Assembly (NCBI RefSeq): GCF_030846775.1
Contig: NZ_CP132910.1
Coordinates: forward strand, 3,971,001-4,035,000
Length of the DNA: 64,000 nucleotides
Reading direction: 5' to 3'
Source of the DNA: Geothrix sp. 21YS21S-2
GTDB taxonomy: Bacteria > Acidobacteriota > Holophagae > Holophagales > Holophagaceae
Shown here: positions 6,311 through 36,212 of the stretch, one piece after another
Position numbering within the stretch: the stretch's first letter is position 1
How the letters are laid out: each line of letters opens with the position of its first letter
Notes under the pieces: generated by a model
The model's input: the letters and a program-made list of their open reading frames with translations, nothing else
The model's database searches: none
What the model was told of the DNA's origin: nothing
Position numbers and translations under genes: made by a program

Positions 6311-9300
6311 ATGAACTTCACCGATCTCTTCATCCGCAAGCCCGTCGTGGCCACGGTGGTGAGCGCGCTCATCCTCGTGCTGGGGCTGCGCTCCATCTTC
6401 AACCTGCCCGTCAACCAGTACCCCAAGACCGAGCACGCCGTGGTGACGGTGAACACCTCCTACTACGGCGCCGACTCCGGCACGGTGGGCGGCTTCATCA
6501 CCCAGCCCCTGGAGTCCAGCATCGCCCAGGCCCAGGGCATCGACTACCTCTCCTCCACCAGCGTCAACGGCCTCTCCACCATCGTCGCCACGCTGCGCCT
6601 GAACTACAGCGCCAACAAGGCCCTCACCGAGATCACCACCCAGGTGAACGCCGTGAAGAACCAGCTGCCCCCCGCCGCGCAGCAGCCGGTGATCACGGTG
6701 CAGATGAGCGACAACACCGACGCCATGTACATGGGCTTCTACAGCGAGGTCCTGCCCACCAACAACATCACCGACTACCTCTCCCGGGTGGTCAAGCCCC
6801 GGCTCGACTCCATCCCCGGCGTGCAGACCGCCGAGATCCTGGGCGCCCGCAACTTCGCCCTGCGGGCCTGGCTGGACCCGGTGCGCATGGCCGCCCACGG
6901 CGTGACCGCCACGGACGTGAGCAAGGCCATCCAGAACAACAACGTCCTCTCGGCCCTGGGCAGCACCAAGGGTCAGATGGTCACCGTGGACCTGCTGGCG
7001 GCCACGGACCTCCACACCGTGGAGGAGTTCCGCAAGCTCTCGGTGCGCCAGGCCGGGGGCGCCATCGTGCGCCTGGAGGACGTGGCCACCGTCAGCCTCG
7101 GGGCCGACGACTACTCCTTCAACGTCTCCTTCGACGGGCGCCAGTCGGTCTTCATCGGCATCAAGGTGGCCCCCGAGGCCAACATCCTGGAGGTGGCCAA
7201 GCGGGTGCGCAACGCCTTCCCCGAGATCCAGTCCCAGCTGCCCACCGGGCTCACCGGGCAGATCGTCTACGACGGCACCCACTTCATCAACACCTCGATC
7301 GAGGAGGTCATCAAGACCCTGGTGGAGGCCCTGCTCATCGTCACGGTGGTCATCTTCCTCTTCCTGGGCACCCTGCGGGCCGTGGCCGTGCCGGTCATCG
7401 CCATGCCGCTGTCCCTGGTGGGCACCTTCGCGGTCATGCTGGCCCTGGGCTACACCATCAACCTCCTGACCCTCCTGGCCCTGGTGCTGGGCATCGGCCT
7501 GGTGGTGGACGACGCCATCATCGTGGTGGAGAACGCCGACCGCCACATGCGGGAGGGCAAGAGCCCCCTGGAGGCCGCCATCCTCGCCGCGCGGGAGCTG
7601 GGCGGGCCCATCCTGGCCATGACCGTGGTGCTGGTGGCGGTGTACGTGCCCATCGGCTTCCAGGGGGGCCTCACGGGGAGCCTGTTCACCGAGTTCGCCT
7701 TCACCCTGGCCGGGGCCGTGGCCGTCTCGGCCGTGGTGGCCCTGACGCTTTCGCCCATGATGTGCGCGAAGTTCTTCAAGGCCGAACAGGACTCCAACCG
7801 GTTCGTGAGATTCATCGACGGCCAGTTCGAGTGGTTCCACGGGCACTACCTGCGCCTCCTGAGGAGCGTCCTGGCCACCTCGGCGGTGCCGGCGGTCATG
7901 GGCCTGCTGATCCTCGTCGCCACGGGCTTCCTCTTCGCCACCTCCAAGTCCGAGCTGGCGCCCCAGGAGGACCAGGGCTTCATCCTGGCCTCCATCACCG
8001 GCCCCCCCAACTCCACCGTGCAGCAGATGCAGACCTACGCCGACCAGGTGTACGGCATCGCCAAGTCCTACCCCGAATACCAGGCCATGTTCCAGTTCAC
8101 CAACGCCGGCAGCGCCTTCGCGGGCCTGATCCTGAAGCCCTGGGACCAGCGGACCCGGTCCGGGGAGACGGTGCAGCAGGCCTTCCAGGGGGACACCTCG
8201 GGCATCGCCGGGGCCCAGGTGGCCACCTTCCAGCCGCCCTCCCTGCCCGGGGCCTCGGGCCTGCCGGTGCAGTTCGTCATCAAGACCACCGAGCCCTTCG
8301 AGCGCCTGGACGAGGTCTCCAGGGCCGTCCTGGACAAGGCCCGCGCCAGCGGGATGTTCTACTTCGTGGACACCGACCTGAAGATCGACAAGCCCCAGAG
8401 CACCCTCGTGGTGGACCGGGACATGGTGGCGACCCTGGGCCTGACCCAGCAGGACGTGGGCGGGGCCCTCACCGACGCCCTGGGCGGAAACTACGTCAAC
8501 TATTTCGCCATCGGCGGCCGGTCCTACCGCGTCATCCCCCAGGTGCTGCAGGTGGACCGCCTCAACTCCGATCAGGTGTTGGACTTCCACCTGCGCAACG
8601 GGGACGGGACCCTCTTCCCCGCGGGCACCGTGGCCACCCTGAAGGACTCCGTGGCGCCCCAGGCGATCCGGCGCTTCCAGCAGCTGAATTCCGCCACGAT
8701 CTCGGGCGTCTACGGCCCGAACTTCTCCCAGGAGCAGGTGCTGGACTTCTTCCGCAAGGCGCTGCGCGACAGCGCCCCCCCGGGCTACCAGGCCGACTAC
8801 TCCGGCGTCTCCAGGCAGTACATGCAGGAGGCCGGGGGCTTCGTCATCACCCTGGGCTTCGCGGTCATCATCGTCTTCCTGGCCCTGGCCGCGCAGTTCA
8901 ACAGCCTGCGGGACCCGCTGATCATCCTGGTCTCCGTGCCCATGGCGCTCTTCGGGGCCCTGATCTTCATCAACCTGGGCCTGGCCTCCCTCAACATCTA
9001 CACCCAGGTGGGCCTGGTGACCCTCATGGGCCTGATCAGCAAGCACGGCATCCTCATCGTGCAGTTCGCCAACGAGCTGCAGGCCGCGGGGCGAACCCGC
9101 CTGGAGGCCATCGCCGAGGCCTCCGCCATCCGGCTCCGCCCCATCCTCATGACCACCGCGGCCATGGTGCTCGGCGTGTTCCCCTTGGTGATCGCCGGGG
9201 GCGCCGGGGCCGCCGGGAGGCGGGCCATGGGCCTGGTGATCTTCACGGGGCTTTCCATCGGGACGGTCTTCACCCTCTTCGTGGTGCCGGCCTTCTACAA

Positions 9301-27992: not shown

Positions 27993-29991
27993 GTGCGCCA
28001 GGCCAAGCCTGGGCGAGGAGGATGGATGACCTAAGACAGACTGAAACCTCGCAATGGAGCCCAGCGGGGAGGCAGCAAGCCCCGCCCGGCAAAGCTGGCC
28101 AGCAGCCGGAACCGAGTCTTGCGTGGGGAAGGGCGACCGACCTCGTGAAGCGTAGACAGGGAGTGCATGGGCCGTGTGATGGAGCCCCGAAAGCATCCAA
28201 CCGTGGGAGTCGACGCCGTTCTCCGATCGGAAGACAGCACCCGAAGGTCGCAAGGGCCTGACCGTAGGGTCCCACCGGGGTCATAGAGCAGGGCACGTGC
28301 ACAGGGGTTCCCCAGGAACCTGGGAGATCCAGCCATCTCCGCCAACAACCCAGTGGTGAGGGAAGCCACGTAAAACGAACCCAGGCTCGCCGGGGGGTGC
28401 CGCCCCCGGCGGGAGCGAACAGCCGGCACAGGGCGGTACCGCAAACTGAAGGAAACGAAGGAGCGCGGGAGGGGTGGCCGGAAGTCGGAGCAGCTCATAG
28501 TAGCGATGATCGCGGGGAACCGGGCCGCCGGGACCCGCTGGAGCCAAGGAGCTGCCGGATCACGGAACCGTTGAAGGGAAAGATAATGGGTGCAATGACA
28601 TCCAACAGCGTCTCCACGAAACAACAACGGATCGCAGAACTGGCCAGGATCCACCCGGAGGTGGCTTTCACCTCCTTGGCCTACCACATGGACCTGGACT
28701 GGATGAAGGAAGCCTTCGGGCGCACCCGCAAGGATGGGGCGACCGGGGTGGACGGCGTGACGGGCAAGGAATACGGGGAAAACCTGGAGTCCAACCTCCA
28801 GAGCCTCCTGAACCGGGCTAAGAACGGCGACACCTACAAGGCCCCTCCAGTCCGGAGAACCTACATCCCGAAAGGGGATGGCAGCCAACGCCCCCTGGGC
28901 ATTCCCGCCTTCGAAGACAAGGTCCTGCAAAGGGCCGTGGTGATGGTGATGGAACCGCTCTATGAGCAGGACTTCCTGGACTGCTCCTACGGGTTCAGGC
29001 CCGGGCGCTCCGCGCACATGGCGCTGGAGGCGATTTGGCAGGGGTTGATGGACATGGGGGGAGGCTGGGTGCTTGACGTGGATATCCGTAAGTATTTCGA
29101 TACTTTGGACCACGGGAAGCTGCGGGAAATCCTTGACCTGCGGATGAAGGACGGCGTTCTGAGGCGCCTGATCGGCAAATGGCTCAACGCGGGCGTGCTG
29201 GAGAAAGGATGCATCACGCACCCGGAAACCGGCTCGCCCCAGGGCGGGGTGGTCAGTCCGATGCTCGCCAACATCTACCTCCACGAGGTGCTGGACGTGT
29301 GGTTTGAAAGGGAGGTCAAGCCCCGACTCCGGGGTCGGGCCTTCCTGGTGCGCTACGCGGACGACTTCGTGATGGGCTTTGCCCAGGAGGAGGATGCCAA
29401 GCGGGTTATGGAAGTCCTGCCCAAGCGGTTCGAGCGGTATGGCCTGACGATCCACCCGGATAAGACCCGGCTGGTGGAGTTCTGGAAGCCGAGGGAGCCC
29501 AGGGACCCCAATGGGGGACCAGGCCACTTCGACTTCCTGGGATTCACCCACTACTGGGCCACGGCCAAGAACGGCCGGTGGGTGGTGAAGCGGAAGACCG
29601 CGAAGAGCCGGATGAGTCGGGCGCTCACGAAGATCGGGGAGTGGATGGCCAAACACCGCCACCTCCCGGTGCGCGAGCAATGGCGGACGATCAACCAGAA
29701 ACTGGTCGGTCACTTCAGGTATTACGGGATCACGGGGAACTCCAGGGCCCTGGCGCACTTCCGCTATGAAGTTGGGCGAAGGTGGCGTGGATGGCTCAAC
29801 CGGAGGTCCCAGCGGGCCCGCATGACCTGGGATCGCATGAACAAGCTTCTGGCTCGGTTCCCACTGGCCCCAGCCATCAGTTACGCATCGAAACTACGTC
29901 CTCAGCGACCGTGACGAGGAGCCGGATGCGGTAGTCCCGCACGTCCGGATCTGAGGGGGGCCGGGGGCGCAAGCTCCCCGGCCTACCCGAC
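27993..29991 (+). mobile_element. Group II intron, apparently full length
   Basis: The 5' end GTGCGCC matches the group II GUGYG rule, and the first domain I stem (CGCCAGGC-CAA-GCCTGGGCG) folds as expected. A ribozyme of about 590 nt precedes the ORF. After the ORF, 29919-29951 folds into a domain V hairpin (GCCGGATGCGG with CCGCACGTCCGG). Domain VI, about 29957-29991, is a GC stem with a bulged A and ends in AC. The total is about 2.0 kb. It sits between the small gene at 27.5 kb and glpK, so it breaks no recognisable gene. Confidence 0.9.
28586..29914 (+). CDS. ltrA: Group II intron-encoded reverse transcriptase/maturase
   Basis: 442 residues from the ATG at 28586, preceded by AAGGGAAAG. 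RT blocks are present: RRTYIPKGDGSQRPLGIPAF, SYGFRPGRSAHMAL, the active-site YADDF in FLVRYADDFVMGF, and SPQGGVVSPMLANIYLH. The maturase X/thumb region follows (WMAKHRHLPVREQWRTINQK, FRYYGITGN). It ends ISYASKLRPQRP without an HNH endonuclease domain, so the intron would move by an endonuclease-independent route. All catalytic residues look intact. It helps splice its own intron and reverse-transcribes it into DNA. Confidence 0.95.
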   Translation: MGAMTSNSVSTKQQRIAELARIHPEVAFTSLAYHMDLDWMKEAFGRTRKDGATGVDGVTGKEYGENLESNLQSLLNRAKNGDTYKAPPVRRTYIPKGDGSQRPLGIPAFEDKVLQRAVVMVMEPLYEQDFLDCSYGFRPGRSAHMALEAIWQGLMDMGGGWVLDVDIRKYFDTLDHGKLREILDLRMKDGVLRRLIGKWLNAGVLEKGCITHPETGSPQGGVVSPMLANIYLHEVLDVWFEREVKPRLRGRAFLVRYADDFVMGFAQEEDAKRVMEVLPKRFERYGLTIHPDKTRLVEFWKPREPRDPNGGPGHFDFLGFTHYWATAKNGRWVVKRKTAKSRMSRALTKIGEWMAKHRHLPVREQWRTINQKLVGHFRYYGITGNSRALAHFRYEVGRRWRGWLNRRSQRARMTWDRMNKLLARFPLAPAISYASKLRPQRP

Positions 29992-33587: not shown

Positions 33588-34055
33588 ATGGAGAATCCCG
33601 CCCCCGCCGAACAGGCCCTTCAACTGCTCTTCAAGAAACTGCACCCCCACCTGGAGGACGTGGCCCACGCCCTGGCCACCGGGGCCGGTCCCAGGGACCT
33701 GGAGCGGCTCCACCAGAAGCTCACCCTCGCCTGCCACCAGGCCTCGGAGGTCCTGGACGGCCTGGCCGCCCAGACCGAAGGCCCCCTTGCCGAGACCCTG
33801 GACACCCTCTCCGCCAACCTGCTCCCGGTGGGCGGAAGCTTCCAGCAACTCCTTATTTTGGTTCAGTTGTGTCTCGAGGAGGCGCCTGCCGACCTCCTGC
33901 CCTTCACGCCGCCCGGCAGCGCAGCGGCCACGGGGTGGGGCAAGCGCATGGTGGCCTTCCTGGCCCGCCTGGAGGATCCCGCCTTCCAGGCCCGGGCCCG
34001 GTGGGCTGCCGTGGACCCTGACCTCGGCGACGAGGCCCTGGCCGGGGATCTATAG
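33588..34055 (+). CDS. Hypothetical cytoplasmic helical protein
   Basis: 155 residues, leucine- and alanine-rich and largely helical, with no signal peptide or membrane segment and no motif I know. It is divergent from acs with 93 bp between starts. Its stop codon lies in the arm of the hairpin at 34050-34091. Codon use matches its neighbours, which supports it being real. Confidence 0.6.
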
Positions 34056-34091
34056 GAGCCTGCCTCCTATTACGTAGACAGGCTCCTATAG
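34050..34091. terminator. Symmetric hairpin that contains the stop codons of two convergent genes
   Basis: 13-bp perfect arms, CTATAGGAGCCTG (34050-34062) and its complement (34079-34091), flank a 16-nt loop. The plus-strand gene ends at TAG 34053-34055 in the left arm. The minus-strand gene ends at 34086-34088 in the right arm. It probably terminates or protects both transcripts. Confidence 0.7.
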
Positions 34092-36212
34092 GACGAACAG
34101 CGTGGTGACCGCGAAATAGGAGGCCATCAGGACCGGCCAGAACGCCCGCTTGACCCAGGCGTTGTCGCCGGCCCGGAGCCCGTGGCCGCTGCCGCGGGCG
34201 TAGGCCAGGGCATCCGCGGAGACCAGGAGGATGAAGGCGTACAGGATGAAATAGTACCATTCGAGGTTCAGCACCCCGCTGGCCACGATGCGGTTGCGGA
34301 TGTTGAACTGGGACACCACCAGGGAGAAGAACAGGGCGATGGTGGTGCGCAGGAAGTTCAGGTAGCTGTAGCCGGTGGCCCTGGTCCAGGGCCCGTCCCG
34401 GCCGACCGTGAGGGTCATCGTGAACAGGAGTCCCGCCACCGCAAGCAGGGGCAGGAACACCATGATGCAAGGCCCCAGCCACTGCCGGCGCATCCGGACG
34501 GACATCACCAGTTCGGGCGACTGCCGTTCCCTCAGGAAGCCTTCGGCCCCCAGGCGGGTGTTGTAGTTTTCCAGGAGGTAGACGAATTCGTTGCCCTCCA
34601 CGTCCCAGCCCGGCAGGCTCAATTCCGGGTCCATGCCCGGGCCGTTCCCGAAGGCCAGGACCGGATAGCTGGCCAGGTCCGGCACCAGGATCTGGTTGCC
34701 GTGGATGGCCTTGGGCCAGATGCGCAGCCTGGCCCGGATGCGGTCGAAGGGGTAGATCCGGGTGCTGTCCAGGTCCGGCTCCACCGTGACCCGGAACGGA
34801 TAGAACTGGACGACCCAGTCCTTCTCCTCCTTCTCGGCGCCCACGCTGATGTCCCCGGCCAGGGCCTCCGGCAGGGTGACCCCGCGCTGCTCCCTGGGCG
34901 TGCCCTTGGGCAGGCGCTGCCAGACCATGCCCGTGATCTTCACCTGGCTGGGACCGGTGATCTCCAGGGTCTGCAGGAGGACCCCCGTCGGGACGAACTC
35001 GGCCTTCACCGCGTCGAGGCCCGCCATCAGCGAGCCGTGGCTCGCCTTGAACCGTTCCAGGCTCAAGGGATCCATCATCTGGATCTCGTTGTCCGGGGGG
35101 GGCGGGGGCGTCGCGTAGGCGAACCGGAACAGCACCCCGATGCCGGCGGCCACCGCCAGGGAGCCCAGGGCCACCGTCCACCAGAGGCTCCACGGCGCCA
35201 GCCATGGACCCTTGAAGGCCAGGAACAGGAGCACCCACGCCAGGGCGACGGCCAGGGTCACGATGCGCAGCACCTGCCTGTTCAGGTCGGAGGGCGCGAG
35301 CTTCAGGTCGTCCTTGAAGAGAAGCACGCAGGCCGACCACCCGGCGGATGGGACCGGTTCCAGGAACGTGATCCCGTCCTGCCCCGTGGCCAGGGCGAGG
35401 GTTTCGGCATGGCCGGCGCGCCCCTTGAGCGCGCACTCCGCCAGGTAGGCCTGGGCCGGGTCCCCCCTCTCCTTGGCCAAGGCCGCCAAGGTCCTGCCCT
35501 CCCTCACCCGTTCGGGCAATGGGAAGGCGATGAAGGCCGTGCGGGCCGACAGGAGGAAGGCGTACCCCTCGTGACCCATGCCCAGGTCCTGGAGCCGTTT
35601 CTGCAGGTGGGCCAGGGACACCTCCAGGCGCACCAGGCCCGAGGGGGCGGCGGCCCCGGGCAGGCGGAACGGTTCGAGGTAATCCACCAGAAAGGCCTTG
35701 CCGTCGGTGGACCGGTGGGGTTCCGTCCAGGCGGGCCCGCCCTGGTCCGGCTTGAACCATGGTTTGAGGGTGTAGTCCCCCTGGCGCCCGTAGTCGTAGA
35801 CCCGCAGCGGGCCATGGTCGCGGGCAGCATAGGGGGCGAACCGGGCCGGTTCCCCGCCCCGTGCGCCGGGCTGGAACAGCACGCCCATCCGGGCGATGCT
35901 GGGCGGCGCCTGGTCCAGGGCCGGGCCAAGCCTCGCCCCGATCGCCTCCGGGGCGAGCCGGCCGTCTTGCAGATCCGTCACCAGGCCGTGGGCCACCTGC
36001 GCCAGACTGGCGAGCTCCTCGTCGATGGCCTGGGCGGTGCGCCTTGCCCCCGCCTGGCCTGCGGCCACGGCCAGGGCCTGGAGGGCCCGGGTCTCCTGCT
36101 GGACCCGCCGGATGGCGAGGCCCAGCAGCAACCCCATCAGGCCCGCCAACCCGCAAGCCGCCGTGAAGATCCGGCGGGGGGTCAGAAGGCGAAGCAGGAG
36201 GGGAGGGGGCAT
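34086..36212 (-). CDS. Cache-domain protein fused to a pentameric ligand-gated ion channel-like module
   Basis: 708 residues from the ATG at 36212. Order: TM (about 14-36); extracytoplasmic double-Cache-like domain (about 40-310; VYDYGRQGDYTLKPWFKPD, GKAFLVDYLEPFRL); two TM segments (314-333, 341-366); a beta-sandwich (376-572); four C-terminal TM segments (579-601, 614-640, 651-671, 687-708). The sandwich and last four helices match the Cys-loop/pro-loop receptor plan: IYPFDRIRARLRIW (486-499, the PFD signature), an arginine-rich entry with Pro-rich M1 (MRRQWLGPCIMVFLPLL), M2 YLNFLRTTIALFFSLVVSQF, and M4 at the extreme C-terminus. Inferred role: ligand-gated channel or receptor in the inner membrane. 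The start lacks a good ribosome binding site. Confidence 0.65.
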   Translation of the reverse strand: MPPPLLLRLLTPRRIFTAACGLAGLMGLLLGLAIRRVQQETRALQALAVAAGQAGARRTAQAIDEELASLAQVAHGLVTDLQDGRLAPEAIGARLGPALDQAPPSIARMGVLFQPGARGGEPARFAPYAARDHGPLRVYDYGRQGDYTLKPWFKPDQGGPAWTEPHRSTDGKAFLVDYLEPFRLPGAAAPSGLVRLEVSLAHLQKRLQDLGMGHEGYAFLLSARTAFIAFPLPERVREGRTLAALAKERGDPAQAYLAECALKGRAGHAETLALATGQDGITFLEPVPSAGWSACVLLFKDDLKLAPSDLNRQVLRIVTLAVALAWVLLFLAFKGPWLAPWSLWWTVALGSLAVAAGIGVLFRFAYATPPPPPDNEIQMMDPLSLERFKASHGSLMAGLDAVKAEFVPTGVLLQTLEITGPSQVKITGMVWQRLPKGTPREQRGVTLPEALAGDISVGAEKEEKDWVVQFYPFRVTVEPDLDSTRIYPFDRIRARLRIWPKAIHGNQILVPDLASYPVLAFGNGPGMDPELSLPGWDVEGNEFVYLLENYNTRLGAEGFLRERQSPELVMSVRMRRQWLGPCIMVFLPLLAVAGLLFTMTLTVGRDGPWTRATGYSYLNFLRTTIALFFSLVVSQFNIRNRIVASGVLNLEWYYFILYAFILLVSADALAYARGSGHGLRAGDNAWVKRAFWPVLMASYFAVTTLFVL

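Follow-up and report, generated by a model that had tools for sequence, protein, structure and literature searches.

The 64,000-nucleotide stretch analyzed here (the window) encodes a 708-residue protein in which a membrane-bracketed double-Cache (dCache) sensor domain is followed by the core of a pentameric ligand-gated ion channel (pLGIC), a domain assignment that we regard as nearly certain. Judged from sequence profiles and a predicted fold, the protein is a bacterial relative of the animal neurotransmitter-gated channels. It belongs to a diverged, mostly unannotated clade that is missed by the Pfam and NCBIfam models; surveys of prokaryotic pLGICs based on these models will therefore undercount such proteins. 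A homopentameric, small-molecule-responsive channel is the most likely predicted function. The gene comprises the following features.

34086..36212, minus strand: whole gene, encoding the 708-residue dCache-7TM pLGIC-like protein (translation, orthologs, and GC3 of 0.93)
36114..36170, minus strand: transmembrane helix TM1, residues ~15 to 33, anchor of the sensor (hydropathy and AlphaFold model)
35313..36095, minus strand: double-Cache sensor domain, residues ~40 to 300 (Pfam, PDB profile, and Foldseek)
35217..35294, minus strand: TM2, residues 307 to 332 (AlphaFold helix; conserved in relatives)
35112..35195, minus strand: TM3, residues 340 to 367, leading out to the channel ectodomain (AlphaFold model; conserved in relatives)
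34485..35000, minus strand: pLGIC-type extracellular beta-sandwich, residues 405 to 576 (alignment, PDB profile, model, Foldseek, and VIA)
34743..34754, minus strand: pro-loop motif YPFD, residues 487 to 490 (Pro488 invariant in 43/43)
34407..34478, minus strand: M1 helix, residues 579 to 602, with the conserved pre-M1 Arg576 ahead of it (alignment and model)
34290..34364, minus strand: M2 helix, the predicted pore lining, residues 617 to 641 (model; Phe629 and Arg639 each in 40/43)
34194..34271, minus strand: M3 helix, residues 648 to 673 (model)
34092..34160, minus strand: M4 helix, residues 685 to 707, ending the protein, with the C terminus predicted to lie outside the cell (model)

The 708-codon open reading frame (ORF) fills positions 36212 to 34086, with its stop codon at 34086 to 34088, and has codon-position GC contents of 0.69/0.48/0.93. 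Three further genomes of the same genus carry a full-length ORF (39 to 41% identity) in the same acs/prolyl-oligopeptidase neighborhood. Given the codon-position GC and the full-length conservation in the genus and in many other phyla, the minus-strand ORF is a genuine coding gene. The feature that a sequence-only reading had placed at this interval, strand unstated, is thus real and lies on the minus strand; the plus strand is also an open frame there, and the results obtained gave no support for a gene on it. One same-genus genome lacks the Cache-pLGIC gene. In another (G070), the copy (L008, L011, and L014; G070:C99:25845-27190) is broken across reading frames and contains an in-frame TAG; it is either a pseudogene or an assembly error. 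The window gene looks monocistronic; a prolyl-oligopeptidase-like gene (36346, plus strand) is divergent from it, a plus-strand ORF ending at 34055 is convergent with it, and no binding-protein gene was seen adjoining it. A terminator-like inverted repeat (GGAGCCTG...CAGGCTCC; 34041 to 34085) sits between these convergent genes, directly past the stop codon of the window gene.

Searched alone, the window protein had no pLGIC match in Pfam or among PDB sequences, and its C-terminal half had none in Pfam and NCBIfam. Pfam Neur_chan_LBD and Neur_chan_memb matched 0/43 family members, one relative weakly matched NCBIfam LGIC_1 (0.0028), and a PF02931 search of the protein's own genome gave no match, the control likewise matching nowhere. 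Profiles placed the C-terminal half among pLGICs. With a family profile of 43 rows (relatives from several phyla), hmmsearch against the PDB retrieved GLIC at 2.3e-7, and GLIC accounted for all 60 matches listed. Profile-profile comparison (hhalign) of the family with A5, a set of 26 bacterial pLGICs of the PBP-fused and canonical types (8 with a Neur_chan_memb match and 3 with a Neur_chan_LBD match), gave a probability of 99.6 and an E value of 7e-24. In the whole genome of the window (G000; 5.25 Mb), profile A6, which represents short, mostly canonical bacterial pLGICs, made a single match, and this was to the same gene (34413 to 34829; E value, 3.3e-6). Neither profile A2 nor profile A6 found a second pLGIC or partner subunit in that genome.

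Predicted structures led to the same family. A first AlphaFold model drew on just 7 full-length sequences, too few to resolve the channel half (pLDDT, 58), and is usable for its Cache part only; Foldseek with this model still retrieved GLIC. A model of residues 304 to 708 on 43 homologs (pLDDT, 85.2; pTM, 0.81) contains, in order, helices 307 to 332 and 340 to 367, a short helix, a ten-strand sandwich (405 to 576), and M1 to M4. The sequence-only reading had described two extra helices ahead of a channel module with a sandwich, four C-terminal helices, and M4 at the protein's end, and the model bears out this plan in full. The best 50 chains retrieved from the PDB by Foldseek with the channel-half model were all pLGICs (GLIC, 5.9e-11; TMt, 0.75), as were the top VIA matches (GLIC, Z 19.0, 2.5 A over 270 residues), and the beta-sandwich matched those of GLIC, ELIC, and GluCl. 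The sandwich motif picked out earlier was also found, as IYPFDRIRARLRIW at residues 486 to 499 of the translation. Here the pro-loop xPFD feature is present as YPFD, and the two flanking cysteines are missing, as in other prokaryotic members. Pre-M1 Arg576 is nearly invariant across the 43 rows, while the M1 proline (Pro588) is invariant in the 7-row alignment only.

The N-terminal half is a two-lobed, PAS-like extracytoplasmic domain with a long N-terminal helix, flanked by TM1 and TM2 (profile, model, and hydropathy). In Pfam, the window protein matched MCP-like_PDC_1 at 1.7e-4 (22.5 bits, under the curated cutoff of 27) and dCache_1 at 13.9 bits (cutoff, 45); dCache_1 was matched in 28/43 relatives (E value of ≤0.01; best, 7e-19). 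Against the PDB, phmmer with the window protein found the sensor-kinase dCache structures 3li8 and 3lib at 4 to 7e-6, and a 7-sequence profile reached 3lib at 3.8e-15. Foldseek with the Cache part of the model retrieved 3li9 (3.2e-13) as well as chains of 3lib, for which the target TM-score reached 0.79. The membrane-anchored, dCache-like N-terminal domain proposed from the letters of the gene is therefore upheld by the PDB profile and the fold, with a Pfam match below cutoff. In PctA-type amino-acid-binding dCache domains (dCache_1AA), the ligand motif is Y...R.WY...D. The window protein has GDYTLKPWFKPDQGGPAWTEPHRS at this motif, retaining the W, with F in place of Y, and retaining neither the R nor the first D. 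Because the motif is only partly retained, the ligand is not readable from the sequence.

By hydropathy, the order TM1, Cache region of ~290 residues, TM2, TM3, ectodomain of ~220 residues, and M1 to M4 recurs in relatives, and the arrangement was found in Acidobacteriota, Cyanobacteriota, Chloroflexota, Nitrospinota, Pseudomonadota, and Bacteroidota. The phylum distribution is patchy. Any match to profile A2 was seen in 5/297 sampled genomes of Acidobacteriota, 16/194 of Cyanobacteriota, 8/251 of Chloroflexota, 23/349 of Pseudomonadota, and 18/326 of Bacteroidota, counts that include some genomes with distant PBP-fused or canonical forms only. A search within Cyanobacteriota yielded members (L084 to L088) with a shorter sensor of ~150 residues between TM1 and TM2 rather than a full double Cache, and other members (L029 to L033) have no Cache and retain the TM helices ahead of the ectodomain and M1 to M4. 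In the tree, a branch of 1.77 (support, 100/100) sets the 44 family rows apart from 23 rows of PBP-fused and 4 of canonical pLGICs, the exact position of the canonical rows being unsafe because of long branches; Cache-less rows nest among Cache-bearing rows. One Acaryochloris plasmid carries a copy whose annotation reads "hypothetical protein."

Several relatives lie, at individual loci, beside genes of potential partners; none of these occurs beside the window gene. The start of the Cache-pLGIC gene overlaps with or adjoins a PBP-I gene in Nitrosomonas (L023, 3772 to 4926; L025, 3727 to 4866) and in a gammaproteobacterium (L035, 3667 to 4839), with Peripla_BP_6 matches of 1e-40 for L023 and 1e-47 for L035. 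In an acidobacteriotal genome (G353; L106), a PBP-I gene (6403 to 7662) begins 2 nt past the Cache-pLGIC gene. ABC_sub_bind genes occur upstream of the Cache-pLGIC gene in L107 and, in L112, two genes downstream of it, next to a sodium:sulfate-type symporter gene; a dCache-HAMP gene follows the Cache-pLGIC gene in two Holophagaceae genomes. Finally, a short canonical-type pLGIC gene (~372 to 375 residues) lies about 30 to 100 nt after the Cache-7TM gene in three gammaproteobacterial genomes (pairs at L158:325-3567, plus strand; L149:296-3603, minus strand; and L151), an adjacency that suggests possible heteromers in those gammaproteobacteria. The Cache-pLGIC gene of a Nitrospinaceae relative (L017:7951-9288) is flanked on one side by a gene for a PAS/GAF histidine kinase and on the other by one that matches type VI secretion VasE/TssK.

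The predicted pore-lining helix has an atypical composition. M2 was numbered by a gap-free HMM alignment to GLIC, in which residues 618, 622, 625, 629, and 632/633 correspond to positions 2', 6', 9', 13', and 16'/17', with a register that may be off by one. The M2 of the family is unusually hydrophobic and has no acidic ring at −1'/−2'. Position 6' holds small residues in the family, whereas the window protein and the other copies in its genus have an Arg at or close to it; 13' is Phe in 40/43, 19' is His or Gln, and 23' is Arg in 40/43. With such a composition and this uncertainty of register, conduction and selectivity are not predictable.

As a whole, the mechanism that we consider reasonably probable is that of a pLGIC subunit with an accessory dCache domain that forms a homopentamer and mediates a solute-gated ion flux. 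The predicted topology runs from an inside N terminus through TM1, a periplasmic dCache domain, the TM2/TM3 hairpin, a periplasmic ectodomain, and M1 to M4 to an outside C terminus. Five identical subunits would assemble, as suggested by the single pLGIC detectable in the genome with either profile. A small solute would bind the Cache domain, either directly or via a periplasmic binding protein, the latter route being suggested by the operons of relatives. A TM1/TM2/TM3 bundle around the rim, together with ectodomain contacts, would relay the change to the coupling zone of the pro-loop and M2-M3 loop, where pro-loop Asp490, pre-M1 Arg576, and Arg639 at the end of M2 are candidate residues. The M2 helices would then shift and the pore open, and the ion flux would report the solute. 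Domain identities, fold, homology, predicted topology, and family conservation, as seen in sequences and models, support this mechanism; assembly, conduction, and ligand binding are steps that we infer. Counting against it are the hydrophobic M2, the lack of a Pfam Neur_chan match in 43 members, and a window gene without a binding-protein neighbor. In addition, dCache domains often function as dimers, which fits poorly with five-fold symmetry.

Because of the atypical M2, a serious rival is a receptor that has kept the pLGIC shape but, its pore being degenerate, has lost conduction and signals to a partner by conformational change. The hydrophobic M2, the conserved 13' Phe, the missing charged selectivity ring, the Arg of the genus near 6', and the other sensor and transport genes in operons of relatives would all suit such a receptor. 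We nevertheless consider it unlikely, as the protein has neither a cytoplasmic domain nor a long M3-M4 loop for output, M2 is strongly conserved across phyla, and closed pLGICs often have hydrophobic gates (e.g., L9'/F16' of DeCLIC [PMC9897478]). Alternatively, the true ligand site could lie in the channel ectodomain, with the Cache domain merely tuning gating or docking a binding protein. Cache-less members of the clade (L029 to L033) do retain the ectodomain, TM hairpin, and M1 to M4, and the accessory N-terminal domains of DeCLIC modulate gating (PMC9897478); most of the family, however, retains the full double Cache with its fold intact, and we judge an ectodomain site rather improbable.

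It is very improbable that the window protein is one subunit type of a heteropentamer: a precedent would be the short canonical pLGIC gene after the Cache gene in L158, L149, and L151, whereas the genome of the window has no second pLGIC by either profile. Assignment to another family of four-helix membrane proteins, one with only a resemblance to pLGICs, would account for the absence of a Pfam Neur_chan match but is scarcely tenable, since sequence-profile and fold results all converge on pLGICs. A chance resemblance of the helices to those of pLGICs was likewise considered and was rejected by the PDB profile, Foldseek, VIA, the profile-profile comparison, and the reciprocal A6 search.

The fusion of a Cache domain to a pLGIC is not new. 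The available text of Tasneem et al. (2004) reports MCP-N and Cache fusions to bacterial pLGICs in Methanosarcina, Cytophaga, and Microbulbifer, as well as PBP fusions and operons that contain genes for PBP-II or Cache proteins; it also proposes a chemoreceptor-like function as homopentamers (PMC549065). In those Cache ART-LGICs, too, a Cache-type sensor precedes the bacterial pLGIC core, but they have their extra domains between the signal peptide and the ligand-binding domain, and the available text contains neither sensor-bracketing TM helices nor a TM2-TM3 hairpin (PMC549065). The novelty claimed by the sequence-only reading thus falls for the fusion, published in 2004 (PMC549065), and stands for the TM-bracketed arrangement to the extent that no description of it was found, the post-2004 search covering the open literature with most subscription journals outside its scope. 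The 2004 Cache examples likely belong to the same family, since the clade also occurs in Bacteroidota and Gammaproteobacteria. No experimental characterization of them or of any clade member was found in the literature, and no description of a separate Pfam-invisible clade, the M2 signature, two-subunit operons, or operons with binding proteins in the clade was found in the open literature.

Among characterized channels, GLIC (Gloeobacter) and ELIC (Erwinia) share the beta-sandwich ectodomain, pro-loop, and four TM helices (Z 19 to GLIC) but have no N-terminal sensor or extra TM helices, are ~17% identical, and line M2 differently. DeCLIC (Desulfofustis) is likewise a pLGIC with a gating-modulating accessory N-terminal domain, but this consists of two jelly-roll lobes packed on the ectodomain, is not a Cache, and has no membrane-helix tether (PMC9897478, PMC12664993); according to a 2022 statement, no pLGIC other than DeCLIC both carried an additional N-terminal domain and had its structure solved (PMC9897478). 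PBP-I-fused bacterial pLGICs (L058 and L103, among others) also join a sensor to a pLGIC core and match profile A2 at ~1e-8 to 1e-15, but they have one N-terminal TM helix or signal, carry the PBP immediately ahead of the ectodomain without an intervening TM helix, and form a separate clade. The TM-dCache-TM input module is shared with dCache chemoreceptors and histidine kinases (PctA/B and mmHK1), in which it leads to a cytoplasmic output (HAMP/MCP/kinase), whereas in the window protein a channel core follows after one more TM helix.

For the clade at large, we tentatively suggest a widespread, database-invisible group of pLGICs in which a membrane-bracketed sensor (dCache, shorter, or none) may control the pore via the TM2-TM3 hairpin. 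The input would then pass through or beside the membrane instead of coming from a sensor on top of the ectodomain; in some bacteria, the protein may also form heteromers that include a short pLGIC subunit and a periplasmic binding protein. A well-understood, ligand-screenable dCache domain on a pLGIC core would make the natural stimulus of a bacterial pLGIC findable by thermal-shift screening of the sensor, and the topology would probe how an accessory membrane domain drives gating. The binding-protein and second-subunit genes beside relatives provide direct hypotheses. Elsewhere in the window, a plus-strand ORF at 28397 to 29914 resembles, by eye, a group II intron-type reverse transcriptase/maturase.
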